Of a stretch of DNA of 40,614 nt, positions 1,960 through 29,689 are shown one piece after another. This DNA is from a virus. The number at the start of each line of letters is the position of its first letter. Positions within the stretch are counted from its first letter, which is position 1. The position numbers and the translations under genes were made by a program. A model generated the notes under the pieces. That model searched no databases and was not told where the DNA came from. It saw only the letters and a list, made by a program, of their open reading frames with translations. The stretch is taken from positions 1 to 40,614 of the IMG/VR virus record IMGVR_UViG_3300027597_000015, one strand, 5' to 3'.

Positions 1960-4900
1960 TCAATATTTGATGCACGCCAGAAGTGCTACGTTTCTTGGGC
2001 GGGTTTCTGTTCCACCATTACCATACATAGAAAAACTTGTAGAGTTTTGTGGTCTATTTCCGGGTCCCATTGACCAAGCTTCCCCCAATGATCCTGATAT
2101 TTCAACTTGTAATCCATCAATTGATGTTTGGTGGTTATGACTCTTGAAGTCATCTGCCTGCGTAGAACCAAAAGTTCTTCCAGCATCAGCACCACTCCTA
2201 CCATCTGTCCAACCACGAATAAACTCACCTCTTAAATCTGGAAGTTTTCCGGCAGCACCATAAGTGCTTCCGAGAATAGCATAAAGAGCAGAGAAGTTGG
2301 CAGTAATTCCTTGAACTGTTCCAGTTCCATTTGGTATAGTATCACCATTTGCCTTAAGATATCCAGATGGTGCTGTTGATGTTGCGAAATGGAATACTGC
2401 CCCAGCTGGAACAGCTTGAGTTATATAAGTATTTGAATCAACGGAACCATCTGCTTTTAAGAATTGACTTGCAGTTCCACCTGATTTCACAAATGATGAT
2501 GCAGTTGCAATTCCTACGGTAATATTGGGAGTTCCTGTAAGATTGGAAGCAGTAGCAGCATTACCAGCAAATGAAGATTTCCAAGCAAGACCAGATGCTG
2601 TATTACTATCAGCAGTTAATATCTGATTATCACTACCAACACCAAGTTTAATTCCTAAATTATCAGTTGCAGAACCAACTAAAAGCACACCTTTAACACC
2701 ATCCCAATCTTGGTTTTGAGTAAGGCCACCCAATCCACCAAAGGCAATAATAAAACAAGATAGACCAGCAGTAGGAGGATTGGTCCAAGCAGATGCTGGG
2801 AATGTTATATTGCTACCAGAAGTTGTGTAATCTGTATTGGCTCTTTGTATAATACCACCAACAGATACAAGTAAATTTTCTGCACTAATTGGAGTAAATG
2901 CTGTATTATCTATTGTTCTAAGTGCAAATGTTCTAGTTCCACTTGCACCATTTCCATCAAAAGTTATAGATTGTAGTTGAATTGAATTTCCATTTGGCAA
3001 TGTGCTGTTCGTAACTGGTGGTTGAATGGAAAATCCAGCAGCAGTATCAAGTTCTGACTTTGTTAATGCTTTAGCAGTACCAGTTGCTCTCAATAAGAGT
3101 GCTTCATTTATTGCATTTGTAACTTTAAATCCTGATGCAGTTACTTGACCTGTAACTCCTAAAGTAGTTCCAACAGTTACTCCACCAACAACTTCTAAGT
3201 CTCCAGATGTTTTTATTTTTCCACTGGAAGTAAGAGTTCCAGTATTAGTTACATTGCCACTAGTATCCACAGAGAACTTGTTGGAACCCGAAGCAGTTAG
3301 GTTGAAAGCACCACTAATATCCAAACTACCAGCAATTACTGTATTTCCAGTAGTACCAGCAACAGTAAATTTATTGGTGTTTAATGTTAAACCACCACCA
3401 GCAGTTAATCCACCAAGGAAGGTTGCATTACCACTCGTATCAATCTTTAATTTAGTTTCTGGTAAAAATCCACCACCAAGATTTCTATCAAAACTTTCAT
3501 CATCAAAATAAGCAGTATCAGGTCTTGCAAGTTTCCAAGAATTACTATCACTTACATCAATACCAGCATACCAACGTTGTTTGTTAGTGCCATTTAAATT
3601 ATTATCCCAAGAGATTACAGCATCACCACCATTTCCTGAGTTTGTAATTCTTAAATGACTTCCTCTGGTTTCTGTAAGAGTATTATTTATAGTTGCAGTG
3701 ATGGTTCCACCAGTACCAATTCCCAATCTATCATTTGATTGATTTTGGAATATAATTGGTGAATTGTGATTGTGATTTACGACAAATCCAGAAGCACTTG
3801 ATGATAATTGAGATCTACCAGCAGTAGAACTAGAACCATCAATACCAATGGTTCCACTGACTACTAATTTGTTGGTTGGATTTGTGATTCCAATACCAAG
3901 GTTTCCAGTACCAGTAAGAGTTGCAATTGGTGTTGTTCCAACATACCATTTAAATTGTGCGTTATTATCAGGAACAGAAGACCACAAAGCAGTATTTTCT
4001 ATACCAAGTGCATAATCAGTAGTAGAAGAAGTAAGATTTGGATCAAATACAATTTTAGTTCCAGTACTTCTTGTCGTAAATGTAGGAGGATCCCAAGCAC
4101 CATCTTTAACAAAATCAATTCGGTTTCCACCAGAACCATTCAGGTATATTTGTCCTCCACCAGTTGCAGGATTGTTTGCTTGTGTGGACTGGAATTGCCC
4201 TGATGTGTGAAGTTTTGAAGTTGGATCTGTGGTTCCAATACCAAGATTGCCAAGAATATAAGCATTATTTGCTACTTCTAAATCATAAAGTCTTGATTTG
4301 AGTGCAGTATTGGAATTTGCAATAGTTGGTGGGTCAACATAAATTGCATAAGAAGTTCCACCAACTCCACTAAATTTTGCAGTCTTTCTAACATTAATAA
4401 CATCAAAATTGACATCATTCAATACAACGTTTGATGTGAATGCAACAGTACCAGTGACTGATAAATTTTGAAGTTTGGTATCCCCCGCAACATATAATTC
4501 CGCATCACCAACACCACCAATACCAGAGAATATACTTGTGTCTCCAATACCAAGTCTATCAACTCTAATATCTAAAATATCAGCAGAATTACTAATCAAA
4601 CCAAACTTCTTCCATTCATTATTGACATATACTTGACCGATAGAACCATCAGTTGGATTTGCCTTTAATGAAATATCACCAGAGTTGGAAGATGGAACAG
4701 TTAAAGATGTTGGAGTAGAAATACCAACAGTAATTAACTTGCCTTGTGATGCAGTCCCTTTGATGAATAAATTTTTTGTATTAATTCCTTCTTCTGCAGT
4801 ATTCGTAACTTTTTTTGTAAAGTTTACAGGACCATAGAATTGAGAACTTTGATTTCCATTATCACCACCTTCAACAGTAATTCTTTCTTTTACAAGGACA

Positions 4901-21520: not shown

Positions 21521-22093
21521 TTATTTGGAACAAATAGATGCAAAGAAATCCTTAAAATCTTTGATTGCTTTTAATATTTTACCCATTATAGAAGAACTAT
21601 CAGTATCCACACCAGAAGAACACGATGCTTTTGTTGATGTTGCTAAATCTAATGATGTGCCAGCAATTTGAGTCTTATTGGCACCAGCAAAAGAAATATT
21701 TGTTCCCTGGCCTGATACTGTTGGTGCATCCATATTAACTTGTTTTGATGCTTGAATTGTAACTTCTCCCCCAACTCCATCAACACCAACTAAACGAATA
21801 TTTGCTGCTTTGAGGGTTATAGTTCCATTTAATGCTTGAATAAGAATACTTCCATTTTCAGCATCAATAATTCTCGCAAATTCCTCTGGATTTTTAACAT
21901 TAAATCCAGATACTTCTTTTAATGTCCCATTAATAGCAAAATCACAATTTCCATTTTTATACATATTAATTCCTTGTTTAGTTGGTGTTGATAACCCCAA
22001 CTCTATATCACCATTTGCGAAACTTTTAGTTCCAGCCTCAAACCTATACCAATCGGTTTGAGTTACTTGTTGATTTTCGTTACATCCACTCAT
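21521..22093 (-). CDS. Beta-helical spike-like protein translationally coupled to gp5, 190 aa
   Basis: The ATG at 22093 overlaps the TGA of the gp5 gene (ATGA), so I choose it over the upstream TTG at 22099. Residues about 70-150 show an alternating beta-strand pattern with short turns (NGSILIQALNGTITLKAANI, GGEVTIQASKQVNMDAP), as in the triple-stranded needle of T4 gp5. The end is a short helix with Cys (IMGKILKAIKDFKDFFASIC). The gp5 homologue just upstream shows no such needle. The protein may therefore be the cell-puncturing needle supplied as a separate chain. This is inference from sequence periodicity and coupling. Confidence 0.75.
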   Translation of the reverse strand: MSGCNENQQVTQTDWYRFEAGTKSFANGDIELGLSTPTKQGINMYKNGNCDFAINGTLKEVSGFNVKNPEEFARIIDAENGSILIQALNGTITLKAANIRLVGVDGVGGEVTIQASKQVNMDAPTVSGQGTNISFAGANKTQIAGTSLDLATSTKASCSSGVDTDSSSIMGKILKAIKDFKDFFASICSK

Positions 22094-24381
22094 ACACAAT
22101 CCACCACTGATGTTACAATTCCAGCAATTGCTGCTTGATTTACTTGATCTTGAGTGATCGTAGTATATATTGGAGTAAATTTCATAATTGGAACAACATT
22201 TGCAGCAACTCCTGACCTGGTATTTATAGTTAATGTTGGTGTCCTATCAAATCCACAAATTGGATTTGTTAGTGGTTGAATGCCAATAATAGCACCAGAA
22301 CCAGGAGTTACTATTGGAGTATAGGTATTCTTACCATCTGTGATTGTATCCCCAGTTGTATATCCATATCCAGGTGCGATTACAATTATATTTTGAACGC
22401 AACCAGACACATCACCAGAATTTGCAACATTAGTTCCAGTTCCTCCAGTTCCAGTTCCTCCAGTTCCTCCAGTTCCAATTCCTCCAGTTCCTCCAGTTCC
22501 AGTATCAGATCCTATATTTGTATAATTTCCTTGTGCGTAACCAGAACCAGGATTAGTAACGTATATGGTTTCAATTGAACCAGTATCTTGATTGATTATG
22601 CTTTGTGCTTCTGCTCCAGAACCACAACCACTATTATCAACAATAGAAATTGTCGGTGGAATTGTATATCCAACACCACTACTTAATATTTCAACTGAAA
22701 ATATAGATCCAGTATTATCAACAATTGGTATTGCCTTCGCTCCTATGCCATCACCAAAAATATTAACAATTGGTGGAATACAAGTAGCATACTTTGATCC
22801 AACTGGTAATGGTACAATATCATATTGACTTGTTGGATTTTGAACTTTTTGATTGCATTTATTAAAGATATTATTAAATCTTCCATTAATTCCAGCATAA
22901 AGTGGAGTCACTGCAAGTGCATCTTCAATAGATCCCAAATCTTTACTCACACCTTTAAATACATTCACACCATCAACCATTTTTTCCCAATTGTCCGCAT
23001 CTTTTTCACTTGGACCAAATTTAGAAGCCCAAACGTGTGGAGTTTTACAAGCAAGACCAGTGCATTCAAGAAAACTAAAAATTTGTGATGCCAATGAACT
23101 TGCTTGATTTAAAATTCCAGAAACAGTTGAAAGACCACCAGTCAACCAACCAATTCCAGACATAATAGTAGAAAGTGCGCTTTCTATACTATCCATTACT
23201 TTTGCTAAAATTCCAGCAGTCCATTGCTCTACTGCACAAACTGGGGCATTGATTGTATTTGCTGCTAAATCGCCAAGAAGATTTTCAATGAATGGGAGAA
23301 AATTAAGTTTTTCAAGAATACAAAAAATTACATCTAATATTTTTTTCATTGTCTCCAAAACAATTGTTTGTTGTGGAGGAGGAACAACCAGTCCTACAAG
23401 TTTTCTAAAAGCCCAAGCAATACATTTGAAAATTGTATTTCTTAAATTATTGATAATTAATTTTATAATTCCACCAATTTGTCTAGCACATTTTTTAATT
23501 GAATTTCCAATATCTACAATTTCATTTAATACTGGGTCAATATAAGTACTTAAATACTTATCCAATCCATTTGTGACTGCAATAAAATCTTGAAGACCTT
23601 GTGTGATTTGACCGATTAAATTATTTTGACAACCATTTGCACCAATATAAGTTTTATCGCATTTTTTTTCTATTCCATAAGTTGATTGAGCCTGGCAAAC
23701 CAATTTATCTCCAAATAAATTTAATTTGGGATCAAATGCATTGATATTTGTTGTAAATCCTTTCACACTATCCCAAGAAACACTGTTCTTTAGAATACCA
23801 CTAGCATCAAGTCCAACATCAAGGTTTGCTGCATCCGCAAACGAAATTGGTATTGGTGAAGTTTCTTGTGTTGTAGATGCTGTTGGATTTGCTTGGTCTA
23901 TTTCTTTATTTTTTCTTACTTCTCTTTGTGTTGATTGTATTTTGCCTCCAGGATGACCTGTAAATGGTTTAAATCCTGAACTCATATCTGCTTTTACATT
24001 CTGCTCACTAATTAAGTTCTTAACACCATCACTTCTGTGGAGAAGACCAAGAACTACTGGTTGTTGTGCGTCATCACCATCTAAGAAAAAACCAAAACAA
24101 GTTTCTCCACCTTTTAGATCTAATGTTTTTCCTGTTCCTCCTTGAGCGCTACCAAAGGCAGGGTCTATCATTACCTGCGCCCAAGGTAAATCCTCATCAC
24201 TCAAAACAGAACCAGAAAAAGGATGATAACCAATAATTCTTACTTTACAACGATAGTTCCAATCACCATTAAAATAATCTGCTGCCTTTTTCCAATAATC
24301 TGGATGAGCAACTTGTCCTATCCACCAACTGAAACCATCTTTACCGATGTAATTGGATTTTAATAAAGCTTCTTCAATCAT
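22090..24381 (-). CDS. gp5: gp5-like baseplate hub/spike protein without lysozyme, 763 aa
   Basis: Residues 1 to about 120 match the gp5 N-terminal OB-fold (LLKSNYIGKDGFSWWIGQVA, YRCKVRIIGYHPFSG, DEDLPWAQVMID, GGETCFGFFLDGDDAQQPVV). T4 gp5 then has a lysozyme domain; here none is seen. Residues about 250-450 are hydrophobic helices with several Cys (IIKLIINNLRNTIFKCIAWA, ILDVIFCILEKLNFLPFIEN). From about 540 come GSGY-type beta modules (VEILSSGVGYTIPP, IYVTNPGSGYAQGN), a Gly-Thr linker (residues 627-650) and more of the same module to the end. It should sit at the centre of the baseplate on the gp27-like ring. The start overlaps the 69-aa gene by 8 nt. Confidence 0.88.
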   Translation of the reverse strand: MIEEALLKSNYIGKDGFSWWIGQVAHPDYWKKAADYFNGDWNYRCKVRIIGYHPFSGSVLSDEDLPWAQVMIDPAFGSAQGGTGKTLDLKGGETCFGFFLDGDDAQQPVVLGLLHRSDGVKNLISEQNVKADMSSGFKPFTGHPGGKIQSTQREVRKNKEIDQANPTASTTQETSPIPISFADAANLDVGLDASGILKNSVSWDSVKGFTTNINAFDPKLNLFGDKLVCQAQSTYGIEKKCDKTYIGANGCQNNLIGQITQGLQDFIAVTNGLDKYLSTYIDPVLNEIVDIGNSIKKCARQIGGIIKLIINNLRNTIFKCIAWAFRKLVGLVVPPPQQTIVLETMKKILDVIFCILEKLNFLPFIENLLGDLAANTINAPVCAVEQWTAGILAKVMDSIESALSTIMSGIGWLTGGLSTVSGILNQASSLASQIFSFLECTGLACKTPHVWASKFGPSEKDADNWEKMVDGVNVFKGVSKDLGSIEDALAVTPLYAGINGRFNNIFNKCNQKVQNPTSQYDIVPLPVGSKYATCIPPIVNIFGDGIGAKAIPIVDNTGSIFSVEILSSGVGYTIPPTISIVDNSGCGSGAEAQSIINQDTGSIETIYVTNPGSGYAQGNYTNIGSDTGTGGTGGIGTGGTGGTGTGGTGTNVANSGDVSGCVQNIIVIAPGYGYTTGDTITDGKNTYTPIVTPGSGAIIGIQPLTNPICGFDRTPTLTINTRSGVAANVVPIMKFTPIYTTITQDQVNQAAIAGIVTSVVDCV
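22434..22503. repeat. Short tandem repeats encoding the Gly-Thr linker of gp5
   Basis: Units CCAGTTCCT and CCAGTTCC are repeated about eight times on the plus strand, encoding TGTGGTGGIGTGGTGGTGTG on the minus strand (residues about 627-650). The simple repeat can change length in frame and forms a flexible linker between two beta modules. Confidence 0.85.
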
Positions 24382-24588: not shown

Positions 24589-25878
24589 TTATTTATTTGG
24601 ACTATAAAGACCGTAACTATCACGAATTAATCTCAAACTTGTAACCATTTGCCCACCCTCAAAATGATGTCTCAATTCTTTAATTAAATAATATCCACTC
24701 TGCTCTTCATCTGATGTCATATTTGTATTTCTATCTATTCGTAGAAACTCTGCGTGAATAATTCCACCTGCTTTCAAATTTACATTACAAGGAACAACCA
24801 TATTTAGTGCTTGTGTAAACAATAAATTGTATCTAGAGTATGACATTGCCATATCAGCACCACTTCTTAACTTATCACTCACTGAACCATCTGGTTTTAA
24901 TGCTCCCCTATCTGATGTTCTTACCATAATACGAGAAATGCTATCACCAAACTCATCAGATACAGCAATACTTTCAGCACCACCCAATTTATTCTTAACT
25001 TGGTCTTTTACTTTATAAGTATACAAATCCAAAGTATTGGAATACAAATCATAAAAATAAGTTTTATTTGCATACATACCAACTCGTAATGATTTCATTA
25101 AGTCGATATTCTTTTCATAGTTATAATTTAATATATTAAAATTGGTTTTTGCCTGATTTTCTTCAATTACTTGCGTGAAAAGATAGTATGGTATATTTTC
25201 TTTATCGGCACTATTGGTTTGTATCTTTGTGCTTGAAACTAAACTATCAATACTTCTAAAATTAAATCCATCTTTGTTTTCATAAAATAAGAATCCAGCA
25301 GTTCCTCTTGCTTCTTCTCCTGAAGTTCCTGAATTTTGTCCGTTTGCTGGAACTGCTTTTGGTCCCAACCAAGTTAAAACGTGAAATGGTTTGCGATTGT
25401 TTCCGATGAAAGAATAATCATTTGATGTTTGTTCTATGTTTTCAGTTTTATACTTTTTAGTTTTTAAATCATTTTTAAGAATTTTAGTAACAGTAGATTG
25501 CAAATTTCCTCTATAAATTGTCTGACATCTTGAAGTCTCATTTGTTAATCCTTCACGAGAAACAAGATGTAAAGTAAAGATTTCATTTGAGTGTTGTGCG
25601 TCAAGATTACTTACTTTATAAACATATAAGTCATCAAGCACAAACTCACCAAAAGCAGTATCAACACTAATTGTAACTTTCTCTCCACCACGAATTGGTA
25701 AAATATTAAACAAGGACGAACTGTTCATTAGTTGTGCTATAGCAGTCACACAAGGAGACAAAATATCCTCAAAATAATCAAAGAACAAACAAGAGTTTGT
25801 AACATCAACAGTTGTACTACCATCCAAAGTTTGAATGGTAAAATAATTGGGTTTAAATGAACCTACTGCTGCTGCCAT
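24589..25878 (-). CDS. gp27: gp27-like baseplate hub protein, 429 aa
   Basis: The length is close to T4 gp27 (391 aa) and the gene lies in the hub operon next to gp5, the known partner of gp27. Early strands (FTIQTLDGSTTVDVTNSCLF, GGEKVTISVDTAFGEFVLDD, YVYKVSNLDAQHSNEIFTLH) and the end (QSGYYLIKELRHHFEGGQMV, TSLRLIRDSYG) have the pattern of hub proteins of the gp27/gpD type, which form the torus on which the spike is mounted. The ATG overlaps the TAA of the M23 gene (TAATG), so translation is coupled. The assignment rests on position and fold pattern; direct sequence similarity to T4 gp27 is not obvious. Confidence 0.7.
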   Translation of the reverse strand: MAAAVGSFKPNYFTIQTLDGSTTVDVTNSCLFFDYFEDILSPCVTAIAQLMNSSSLFNILPIRGGEKVTISVDTAFGEFVLDDLYVYKVSNLDAQHSNEIFTLHLVSREGLTNETSRCQTIYRGNLQSTVTKILKNDLKTKKYKTENIEQTSNDYSFIGNNRKPFHVLTWLGPKAVPANGQNSGTSGEEARGTAGFLFYENKDGFNFRSIDSLVSSTKIQTNSADKENIPYYLFTQVIEENQAKTNFNILNYNYEKNIDLMKSLRVGMYANKTYFYDLYSNTLDLYTYKVKDQVKNKLGGAESIAVSDEFGDSISRIMVRTSDRGALKPDGSVSDKLRSGADMAMSYSRYNLLFTQALNMVVPCNVNLKAGGIIHAEFLRIDRNTNMTSDEEQSGYYLIKELRHHFEGGQMVTSLRLIRDSYGLYSPNK

Positions 25879-27959
25879 TACGTTGCGGAAAGATTGGTGA
25901 GTAACATTGTTTTCATAAGACTATTTACCACTTGACCTTCTGTTGGTCCAGGCATAATCACAGTTCCACCACCTCCACCTCCTCCAACAGGAATGAAGAC
26001 TGGTTTTTGTCCTCCACTACCTCCACCCATCATTATAGGCATAATCACAGAAGCACCACCTGGTTGATTATATGATGGATAACTACTCATTTGATTTATT
26101 AACCCTTTTTTATACATCTCAAGCATTTTGGGGTCTGCTTCTGGTCCACCAATTCCAGGTCTCTTTGAAGCATCCATTATTGCTTTAATTCTGGAAAGAT
26201 TTGAATTTGGATCACTTGCTTCATTTGCAATAATAGATTTATGATACATTACATTTAATTTTTGTGCTTTTGCTAATTTTTCAACCAATTCAGCAGTTTT
26301 TAAATTATATTCCTTTTCTCCAGAAGCACCAGTTTCACCTTTTGTCACATCAGCATGTCCTGCAAAAATATGATATGCTCGTTTAGGGTCTTTCATCATT
26401 GCTTCAACTATTTTTTTTGCATTTGCTTCAGCACCTAATGCCATATCTGATTCTAAAATATTTCCACCTCGATTTGTAACACCCAATCCTCCTCTAAAAT
26501 TTTTACCATAAGTCCCGAAACTAGAAACAAGTGCTTGAGAAACAGCAGTATCTGGACTAGTATTACTTGGAATTAATCCTGTTTTTTGTCCTTTTGCATT
26601 TGGGTCTGCGTGTAATTCTAAAACAAAAGGATTAGAACCTGCTCCCGAAACTCCTGCCTTTGGTTTGACTTTTATATTTCCACCAAATCTAAAATACTTA
26701 TCTCCTTCATTATTTGGTATTGAAATTCCACCTCCTCCTCTTCTAACTTCAAAATGGACGTGAGGTCCCGTAGAATTTCCTGTGCTTCCTACATTTCCAA
26801 TTACAGTTCCAGGTTCTATTTGTTGTCCTTCTTTGACTGATATTTTACTTAAGTGCCCATAAAGAGTTGTATTGCCACCAGGGTGGGAAATCATAACCAT
26901 ATATCCGTATCCACCATCATTCCATCCAGCAGAAGTAACGGTTCCTGGTTGAATTACACTTACTGGGGTTCCATCTGGTCTTGGGTAATCAACACCAGTG
27001 TGTGTTCTCCCCCATCTCCATCCATAAGGAGAAGATACAACCCTACTTGGAATATCTCCACCTTCTGCAGTCATCTCTGGAAGTTCTCCTGGAAGTTCAG
27101 GAGAATCGGGAATTGCATCTGGATCTAAACCATAATCTAACATCATTTCATCAGAACCAGCAGCAGATGCGGCAGCATTTACCATTGAAGCAAATGATTT
27201 ATTAATAAATTCTTCAAATTTTCCAACCGACTGTTCGAATTTACTTATAGAATCAACAAAAGAACTAGACCCACCAGTAAGTGCTTTTTGTTTTTCTTCT
27301 TGTCCTTTTAATCGTTCGGCAAGTTTTTGTTTAAGAGCACTTCCACCTTCATATACCCTATCAGCAGTATATCCACCAAGAAAACTTCCAGCCATACTTC
27401 CAACAACAAAACCAAGTCCAGGAATAGGAATAAGTGCTTGACCGATTGCTCCCCCAAGAAGACTACCAGCAAGTGCTCCACCTGCTCCTGCTGCTGATTT
27501 TCCTACACTTTCACCTTCCGCAAGACCAGTCGCAAAATCAAGTCCAGCAAATAGTGCATTACCAACACCAACTGCTCTCATACCACCCAATTTCAATCGT
27601 GGTCCTCTAATTGTTGGTTTTGGTGGTCTTATGTTTGATGGTTTTTGTGGTTTTCCTAACTTTCCTCTACCTGGAAACATATTACCAACAAATCCAGCAA
27701 GGTCCAATGCTCCACTAAACAAAGAACCCAGTAGGTTTCCTGGTCTTCCAAAATTACTTGCGATATTTAAACTAGCAAGTGCTTTTATCTTTTTCTTGTC
27801 TGGTAGTTTTAATTTTTCTAATGACCTTTTTTCTACTTCTAAAAATTTACCAAAATTAATGTATTCACGTTGAAACTTTGGTAAAGAGCTTGACCTTGAA
27901 CCAAGTGAAACAATATTATTTGCCGCAGCAACTAATGGAGAAGAGAGTGTTTTTTTCAT
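25878..27959 (-). CDS. Tail protein with M23 peptidase and possible permuted amidase, 693 aa
   Basis: Residues about 156-196 are a Gly-zipper hydrophobic stretch (GGALAGSLLGGAIGQALIPI) that could enter a membrane. Residues about 303-406 are an M23/lysostaphin-type endopeptidase with all metal and catalytic residues present: H320 and D324 (HTGVD), H369 (LYGHLS), H400 and H402 (HVHFE). Residues about 444-600 look like an Amidase_3 domain with its halves in swapped order: LELHADPN (H450), GNILESD (E503), then FAGHADVTKGETGASGEKE (H535, E550). The C-terminus is Gly-rich with VIMPIMMGGG and VFIPVGGG. It is probably a baseplate/tail lysin that opens peptidoglycan at infection, replacing the lysozyme missing from gp5. 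Both ends overlap neighbours as TAATG. Confidence 0.85.
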   Translation of the reverse strand: MKKTLSSPLVAAANNIVSLGSRSSSLPKFQREYINFGKFLEVEKRSLEKLKLPDKKKIKALASLNIASNFGRPGNLLGSLFSGALDLAGFVGNMFPGRGKLGKPQKPSNIRPPKPTIRGPRLKLGGMRAVGVGNALFAGLDFATGLAEGESVGKSAAGAGGALAGSLLGGAIGQALIPIPGLGFVVGSMAGSFLGGYTADRVYEGGSALKQKLAERLKGQEEKQKALTGGSSSFVDSISKFEQSVGKFEEFINKSFASMVNAAASAAGSDEMMLDYGLDPDAIPDSPELPGELPEMTAEGGDIPSRVVSSPYGWRWGRTHTGVDYPRPDGTPVSVIQPGTVTSAGWNDGGYGYMVMISHPGGNTTLYGHLSKISVKEGQQIEPGTVIGNVGSTGNSTGPHVHFEVRRGGGGISIPNNEGDKYFRFGGNIKVKPKAGVSGAGSNPFVLELHADPNAKGQKTGLIPSNTSPDTAVSQALVSSFGTYGKNFRGGLGVTNRGGNILESDMALGAEANAKKIVEAMMKDPKRAYHIFAGHADVTKGETGASGEKEYNLKTAELVEKLAKAQKLNVMYHKSIIANEASDPNSNLSRIKAIMDASKRPGIGGPEADPKMLEMYKKGLINQMSSYPSYNQPGGASVIMPIMMGGGSGGQKPVFIPVGGGGGGGTVIMPGPTEGQVVNSLMKTMLLTNLSAT

Positions 27960-29689
27960 TATCCGTCAACGATATTGTAAACCATTCTAGAATAAAGAAC
28001 CAAGAAATTATCTGTATTTGCTGCTGGCAAAAATGGAACTGATGGTCCACTCCCTTGTGAAGGTGGAGGAGCACTTGCCCCACCACCACCTGTTTGTTGT
28101 TGTCCTCCACCACTCAAATTAATCGGCATCACAACAGGTTGTTGTTGCTGCTGTGATGGTGGTGGTTGAGAAACATTTGTTGCTAAGTTTTTATATTGTT
28201 CTCTTTTTTCTGGTGGAAGCATCCAATCTGGCAAACCTGGGCCACCTTGTCCAGGTGCCGGTTTTAGTGTTGATGATGGTAATACTGGTGCTGGTGGTGC
28301 TCCAAGAATTGCACCTGGTGTTCTTTTGGACTGTCTTTCTCTTATTTGTTGTAAAAATTTTCTATTTTTTTGTTCGTGTGGATTGTTGGGTGTGTAAGCA
28401 GATCCAACTATTGGTTTGCTGTAGGCAGCTCTTTCAAATTCATTATAAAAAAGACTTGCTGCATCTTCTGGTGTTTTGGATGCTTTCATTCTTTCCAAAG
28501 TTCCAAGTTGTTGTGCTTCTATGACACCATACTGCAATTGAGCTTGATTGCTCATTGGGTCAAGATTTTTTGATTTTGCCCATTCTCTAAATTTTGCCTC
28601 TCTGTTTTTATCTAACTGAAACATTCCAAAATAACCACCCTCTGGTGCATTAGTTCTATAACCACTTTCCCTCATCGCATTGGATAACATACCGTAAGCA
28701 ACATTTTCTCCATAATTTTGTTTAAGATAATCAAACATTTGAGATTCAATTTGTTCTTGATTCCCACTAATTATTCCTGTATCTGGTGGATTTATACCAG
28801 GACCACCAGGACCACCAGGACTACCAGGACTACTCCCACCACCTCCTCCACCACTAGAAGAACCCTTTGATTTTTCGTTCTTCATATTAAATAATTTGCT
28901 GATTACATTTGCAAATCTATCAACAATTGAAGAAAACTTATCAACAACATCTCCAGGAATATCTGGCGATGTTTGTGCTGCTTGTGCTTGGTCTTGTGGA
29001 CTATCAGAAAGTGCATTCACCGTACCAGCACCAAGAGCACCAAGTCCTAATGCACCAGCACCAAGAGCAAGCATTTTTCCTTTTCCACCCATCATTCTTC
29101 CTAGTCCTCTTGGAGCAGATTTCCTCAATCCACTACCAGGAATATCAACATCAAGATTCAATCCTCCACCACCAGAAGGTGAAGCAACAGGAAGATTGGA
29201 TAATTGTTTTACAATTTTGATTATAACTTGACGAATTAATTTTGCAACCTCAAAACTTTCAGTAAATGATTTTTTAAGTGTTTCTAAATTATCTCTTACC
29301 TTATCAATATTTTTTTTATTGCCAAAGAAATTTATAAAACCTAATGCAGTCTTATAAACATTTAAAAACTTACCAAGAATTCCAATTGGTTTTGCATCAT
29401 CTACTTGTTTCAATCTTCTTTGATAATCAGAAGAAAACCCTTGAAGTGTTTTATTAATTGTGCTCGTTACATTATTATTAATATTTGTAGATATTGTGCT
29501 TACAATACTGCCTGTCGCAGAAGGTGCTGGTTGAACTCCTGCTCTTTGAAATCCTACGATTTTATTTGCAGCACTATTCACAACAGAAGCACCAAGTATA
29601 GAACCACCCGAAATAAAGTTCTGTGCTGCTGCTTTATTTGTATTCTGTCTTCCTACTATTTTTTCTGGACTAAGAACAGAACTAACCAT
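27959..29689 (-). CDS. Tail protein with phage_lysozyme2 domain, 576 aa
   Basis: The N-terminal 160 residues are helical. A hydrophobic Gly/Ala/Leu segment lies at about 205-226 (MLALGAGALGLGALGAGTVN), a likely membrane-active helix. A Gly/Ser/Pro linker (275-300) leads to residues about 310-450, which resemble the phage tail lysozyme family (PF18013): ESQMFDYLKQNYGENVAYGM, NAMRESGYRTNAPEGGYFG with E341 the probable catalytic acid, then FQLDKNREAKFREWAK. The C-terminus is Pro/Gln/Gly-rich (QQQQQPVVMPINLSGGGQQQ), similar in design to the end of the M23 protein. It overlaps gp51 by 8 nt and the M23 gene by 1 nt, so hub genes are translated together. Confidence 0.85.
   Translation of the reverse strand: MVSSVLSPEKIVGRQNTNKAAAQNFISGGSILGASVVNSAANKIVGFQRAGVQPAPSATGSIVSTISTNINNNVTSTINKTLQGFSSDYQRRLKQVDDAKPIGILGKFLNVYKTALGFINFFGNKKNIDKVRDNLETLKKSFTESFEVAKLIRQVIIKIVKQLSNLPVASPSGGGGLNLDVDIPGSGLRKSAPRGLGRMMGGKGKMLALGAGALGLGALGAGTVNALSDSPQDQAQAAQTSPDIPGDVVDKFSSIVDRFANVISKLFNMKNEKSKGSSSGGGGGGSSPGSPGGPGGPGINPPDTGIISGNQEQIESQMFDYLKQNYGENVAYGMLSNAMRESGYRTNAPEGGYFGMFQLDKNREAKFREWAKSKNLDPMSNQAQLQYGVIEAQQLGTLERMKASKTPEDAASLFYNEFERAAYSKPIVGSAYTPNNPHEQKNRKFLQQIRERQSKRTPGAILGAPPAPVLPSSTLKPAPGQGGPGLPDWMLPPEKREQYKNLATNVSQPPPSQQQQQPVVMPINLSGGGQQQTGGGGASAPPPSQGSGPSVPFLPAANTDNFLVLYSRMVYNIVDG

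Follow-up and report, generated by a model that had tools for sequence, protein, structure and literature searches.

The window, that is the whole stretch of 40,614 bases analysed here (40.6 kb), comes from a T4-like cyanophage and encodes a gp26-type baseplate protein, gp53, a gp48-like tail-tube cap and a gp5-like hub, together with gp32, PhoH, Thy1 and CP12. One of its tail genes, coding for a protein of 693 residues, lies between the gene of a tail lysozyme-like protein and that of a phrog_350 tail protein (Table 1). From its N to its C terminus, this protein comprises a hydrophobic and glycine-rich region, an M23 endopeptidase domain, an amidase-like domain that we read as circularly permuted, and a C-terminal tail. 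The open reading frame, the M23 domain and the motif positions are as an earlier, sequence-only reading of this DNA had given them, according to ORF analysis, Pfam and motif location. The M23 domain belongs to the Peptidase_M23 family, scoring above the Pfam cut-off and carrying H320xxxD324 and H400xH402.

Table 1. Coordinates of the tail protein gene, its domains and its neighbours in the window.
Feature	Position	Strand	Basis or remark
693-aa tail protein gene	25878..27959	(-)	ORF; relatives aligned over full length
Peptidase_M23 domain, residues 319-409	26733..27005	(-)	Pfam PF01551, 108.4 bits (cut-off 28.7)
Probable circularly permuted amidase_3-like domain, residues 442-598	26166..26636	(-)	Exchange of halves, BLASTP, rotation scan, rotated alignment
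First segment, residues 442-521	26397..26636	(-)	Corresponds to C-terminal half of ordinary relatives
New junction, residues 522-527	26379..26396	(-)	Old C terminus joined to old N terminus; best rotation start 526, plateau 505-529
Second segment, residues 528-598	26166..26378	(-)	Corresponds to N-terminal half of ordinary relatives
H450 codon, putative zinc ligand	26610..26612	(-)	Invariant after rotation
E503 codon, putative catalytic glutamate	26451..26453	(-)	Invariant after rotation
H535 codon, putative zinc ligand	26355..26357	(-)	Invariant after rotation
E550 codon, putative zinc ligand	26310..26312	(-)	Invariant after rotation
Adjoining 576-aa protein, Phage_lysozyme2 (tail lysozyme) domain	27959..29689	(-)	Pfam PF18013, 52.8 bits (cut-off 28.2)
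Downstream 429-aa tail protein (phrog_350)	24589..25878	(-)	Syntenic S-H9-1 orthologue, 28% identity, E 6e-41
CP12, 69 aa	24374-24583	(-)	Pfam, 39.6 bits
gp5-like baseplate hub protein	22090..24381	(-)	Syntenic gp5 in S-H9-1

Cyanophages carry a two-gene cassette, flanked by gp26 and the phrog_350 tail protein, whose cell-wall enzymes vary. It consists of lysozyme2 followed by the M23-permuted amidase protein in the window, of a protein whose match to a cell-wall hydrolase is weak and sub-threshold, followed by an M23-amidase protein, in S-H9-1, and of an amidase followed by M23 in RB11-B; lysozyme2 and M23 are united within one protein in B23, and Sf-FS3 has M23 without amidase. The pairing of M23 with an amidase is not special to the phage of the window, as S-H9-1 has the same pairing, followed in gene order by the orthologous tail protein, CP12 and gp5. 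Pfam found no lysozyme domain in the gp5-like hub protein of the window. Because of this, and because the cassette enzymes vary, the lysozyme2 and M23-amidase proteins are probably tail lysins. The C-terminal part of the gp5-like hub protein contains glycine/threonine-rich repeats. CP12, a regulator of the Calvin cycle, is found between the tail protein and gp5 in S-H9-1 and S-SSM7 as in the window.

Past the M23 domain, the sequence-only reading had noticed pieces of a zinc amidase in swapped order. The motifs LELHADPN (starting at residue 447, with H450), GNILESD (499, E503), FAGHADV (532, H535) and GEKEYN (547, E550) follow one another as motifs 3, 4, 1 and 2 rather than in the linear order of Amidase_3. 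The first segment holds β3 with LELHAD, a helix, NRG, the E503 strand and a C-terminal helix, and the second holds β1 with IFAGHAD, E550, α1, β2 and α2. Homologues of the domain in ordinary order were found in gp094 of Microcystis phage Ma-LMM01, in Synechococcus phages S-H9-1 and RB11-B, and in viral contigs at 17 loci (L049-L065; 15 distinct sequences) and at L124. The latter, a more divergent ordinary member sharing GEKEYN with the window, was considered as a second permutant (46% match) and rejected, its frame being in ordinary order. The C terminus of gp094 reads GHRDG...E...LEIHFDA...NRG...VEVG, the ordinary order. No relative was found in cellular genomes in two scans.

The settings of these homologues differ. 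The S-H9-1 protein QPB08112, annotated as hypothetical, occupies a syntenic position and has M23 followed by the amidase-like domain as in the window, but its amidase-like domain is in ordinary order and overall identity is low. Ma-LMM01 gp094 (phrog_30576, annotated as a baseplate protein) has the homologous domain with all catalytic residues, but the order is the ordinary one, the domain follows a Phage_base_V-like baseplate domain, and M23 lies in the next gene. The 'endolysin' of Synechococcus phage RB11-B, XYR95762, likewise has the homologous domain in the same tail-lysin cassette, but in ordinary order and in the gene preceding the M23 gene. In S-B43 (L048, 1584-3716), the frame encoding the amidase-like domain has no gene annotation and breaks off after ...SLIEFLSTGVEI, near the beginning of the domain; on the opposite strand, an overlapping ORF carries a tail-fibre protein annotation.

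The relation between the two orders was analysed by a rotation scan, in which a profile of ordinary members was compared with every rotation of residues 441-604. The best rotation started at residue 526 and scored 46.0 bits in a single piece spanning profile positions 2-139 of 180, against 28.6 bits for the native order, which covered one half only. Scores did not exceed 9.5 bits for 300 shuffles over rotations, nor 3.7 bits for 92 tiles of other window proteins. In a leave-one-out control, 7 ordinary members peaked at most 2 residues from their own natural start. Taken alone, the first segment scored 31.3 bits against positions 76-139 of the canonical profile, and the second 13.0 bits against positions 2-61, also matching positions 3-48 of the Pfam Amidase_3 profile. 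The reciprocal test with a profile of the permuted clade was informative for L124 and Ma-LMM01 only, both of which gave their highest score with the cut placed ahead of the EIH strand; in S-H9-1, RB11-B and three contigs, the score of the weaker half was too low. When Ma-LMM01 was compared with the window domain by BLASTP, two matching pieces came out in swapped order (E 2e-7 and 3e-5), and PHROG 30576, the family of the Ma-LMM01 baseplate protein, matched the exchanged sequence in a single stretch. In the rotated alignment, GH535, GAxGE550, E-x-H450-x-D, NRG and E503 are invariant in 17/17 sequences, so that three zinc ligands (His, Glu, His) and the catalytic Glu of Amidase_3 lie at homologous positions. 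MAFFT misaligned a mixed set that included first halves of the ordinary relatives; this alignment was discarded and the second halves alone were retained. The rotation test and the rotated alignment thus establish a circular permutation with new termini between α2 and β3. The ordinary-order homologues, which weigh most, and BLASTP, rotation scan and rotated alignment bear out the swapped order proposed by the sequence-only reading, and the four residues it had listed, H450, E503, H535 and E550, are the same in the unpermuted relatives once these are rotated. It had also described a helix-rich end: helices do lie there, but they are β2-α2 of the ordinary fold and not an addition. The sole part missing from the window domain is the C-terminal helical stretch, which is shortened.

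Matches to Pfam Amidase_3 itself (PF01520, NALAA-3) are below the curated cut-off of 27 bits. The native domain scored 18.2 bits, residues 531-574 matching profile positions 3-48; exchanging the halves gave a single stretch up to profile position 83, still sub-threshold at 19.4 bits. The majority of the unpermuted relatives are likewise below the cut-off, among them Ma-LMM01 gp094, which matches Amidase_3 at 343-460. A Pfam search with a tandem-duplicated domain, suggested by the sequence-only reading, did exceed the cut-off with 33.3 bits, but we discount this score as one half is counted twice; unrelated families also score higher with such a duplicate. PDB sequence searches with the window domain and with the unpermuted family profile returned no amidase, just weak unrelated matches. 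The link of the domain to zinc amidases comes from structure prediction, because the fold predicted for an ordinary relative matches NALAA-3. The AlphaFold2 model of this relative, L049 (pLDDT 84.7, pTM 0.84), had amidases as its best PDB matches in Foldseek, and in VIA its first 24 entries were all NALAA-3, with Z scores of 11.3-13.2 against 8.7 for the next fold. Homology over both halves places the window domain in the cyanophage amidase-like family of S-H9-1, RB11-B and Ma-LMM01. Judged by these comparisons, it is homologous, in permuted order, to a cyanophage family that has the NALAA-3 fold and lies outside Pfam Amidase_3 proper, to which we do not assign it because its score stays below the cut-off and its motifs are out of order.

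We consider it very probable (about 0.87) that residues 442-598 arose in nature by circular permutation of a cyanophage NALAA-3 (amidase_3) zinc amidase domain, with one zinc site and a predicted enzymatic activity. The chain would start just ahead of the H450 strand and go on to the strand of E503 and the C-terminal helix; a junction of about 6 residues would then lead into what was the N-terminal half, where H535 and E550 lie. By homology, H450, E503, H535 and E550 would form a single zinc site, which may cut the MurNAc-L-Ala bond of cyanobacterial peptidoglycan, while the M23 domain of the same chain would cut peptide crosslinks and the neighbouring lysozyme2 protein would attack the glycan. 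All three activities would presumably act from the baseplate hub during DNA injection.

The permuted domain most likely works like an amidase, to go by its residues. It is unlikely that a permuted amidase fold has lost catalysis and now has no role beyond binding peptidoglycan or contributing to the structure of the hub. Such a loss would fit a domain that scores below the Pfam cut-off, in a protein whose M23 domain alone could do the cutting. The four catalytic residues are, however, invariant between permuted and ordinary members and kept in all distinct full-length relatives that were aligned, and no part of the protein is better conserved than the permuted domain, whose identity is 84-100% compared with 55-94% in M23. 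Purifying selection acts on this domain: dN/dS is 0.05-0.10 for the nearer relatives and, measured against the window, reaches 0.32 in L018. The M23 domain is a mosaic in L003-L018, its identity to the window ranging from 94% (L017) to 55% (L004, L018), which suggests that this module has been exchanged by recombination among close relatives. In L020, the frame is broken inside the permuted domain near 4258 and the protein ends at 519 aa, owing to a sequencing error or a broken copy.

The window domain was modelled as a monomer, with an input alignment that included half-domain rows from ordinary relatives, and the confidence of the best model is moderate (pLDDT 74.7, the five models going down to 35.2; pTM 0.77). 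Its elements run β-β-α-α-β-α-β-α-β-α, which is the ordinary order rotated, minus one short helix. These models bear on the improbable case in which the swapped halves are homologous to an amidase but the site is built between chains, by domain swapping with neighbouring hub subunits. Hub proteins of T4-like phages are oligomeric and our models are monomers, so that swapping between chains would be conceivable; yet every element is formed in the monomer model at that pTM, and the short junction and clean rotation fit folding within one chain.

Structure prediction, which the sequence-only reading had suggested, gave the elements in rotated order, but order-dependent searches of the PDB with the window model by Foldseek and VIA returned no amidase, only weak matches to assorted α/β folds. 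The missing amidases are expected for a permutant, yet they are no positive evidence for one. A BFVD search with this model ranked the S-H9-1 protein first, weakly (E 0.013). The assorted matches of the native order are what short motifs arranged by chance in an unrelated α/β domain would give; this explanation is very improbable, since the rotation scan rises far above shuffles and tiles, the halves match separately and BLASTP to Ma-LMM01 is significant for both, and the ordinary-order homologues refute it. The window is a single virus record, but an assembly or frame artefact swapping two pieces of an ordinary gene can be practically dismissed, being refuted by independent contigs: the permuted order is shared by 21 viral contigs with 21 different metagenome identifiers, forming one clade, with domains 80-100% identical to that of the window and diverging at synonymous positions. 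Additional scans with wider queries found no further permutant.

With the circular permutation retained as the preferred reading, one may ask whether it is functional rather than neutral. With its new N terminus directly behind the M23 linker, just ahead of the H450 strand, the domain might put formation of its zinc site under the control of the virion, through tension, contacts in an oligomer or release at injection, and the amidase would then become active only once the hub opens; we regard this as doubtful. To our knowledge, all other amidases of the NALAA-3 fold are in ordinary order, so the permuted order is probably the derived state. A permutant and its unpermuted homologue at one genomic position offer a clean test of the effect of chain order on folding, stability and activity. 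The tail-lysin cassette of T4-like cyanophages appears as a place where two adjacent genes trade cell-wall-cutting modules, and the amidase-like family it contains has to date carried the annotations hypothetical, baseplate or endolysin. Searches with a linear profile fail to detect the permutant, and similar cases may therefore go overlooked elsewhere.

We found no report of a natural circularly permuted NALAA-3 / amidase_3 domain in the openly accessible literature. The known members of this group (CwlV, AmiC, Ami1, PlyPSA) share with the unpermuted relatives of the window domain the fold, the His-Glu-His ligands and the catalytic Glu, but they differ from the window domain in having the ordinary order, and its sequence similarity to them is below the Pfam cut-off. 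A precedent for permutation in a superfamily of cell-wall enzymes is given by the circularly permuted NlpC/P60 families (LRAT-like, YaeF/G6R; PMC6403190), which differ from the window domain in being of an unrelated cysteine peptidase fold. HydH5 of phage phiIPLA88 is likewise a virion protein with two cell-wall-cutting domains (PMC3150257), but these are CHAP and LYZ2, unrelated to those of the window protein and without permutation.
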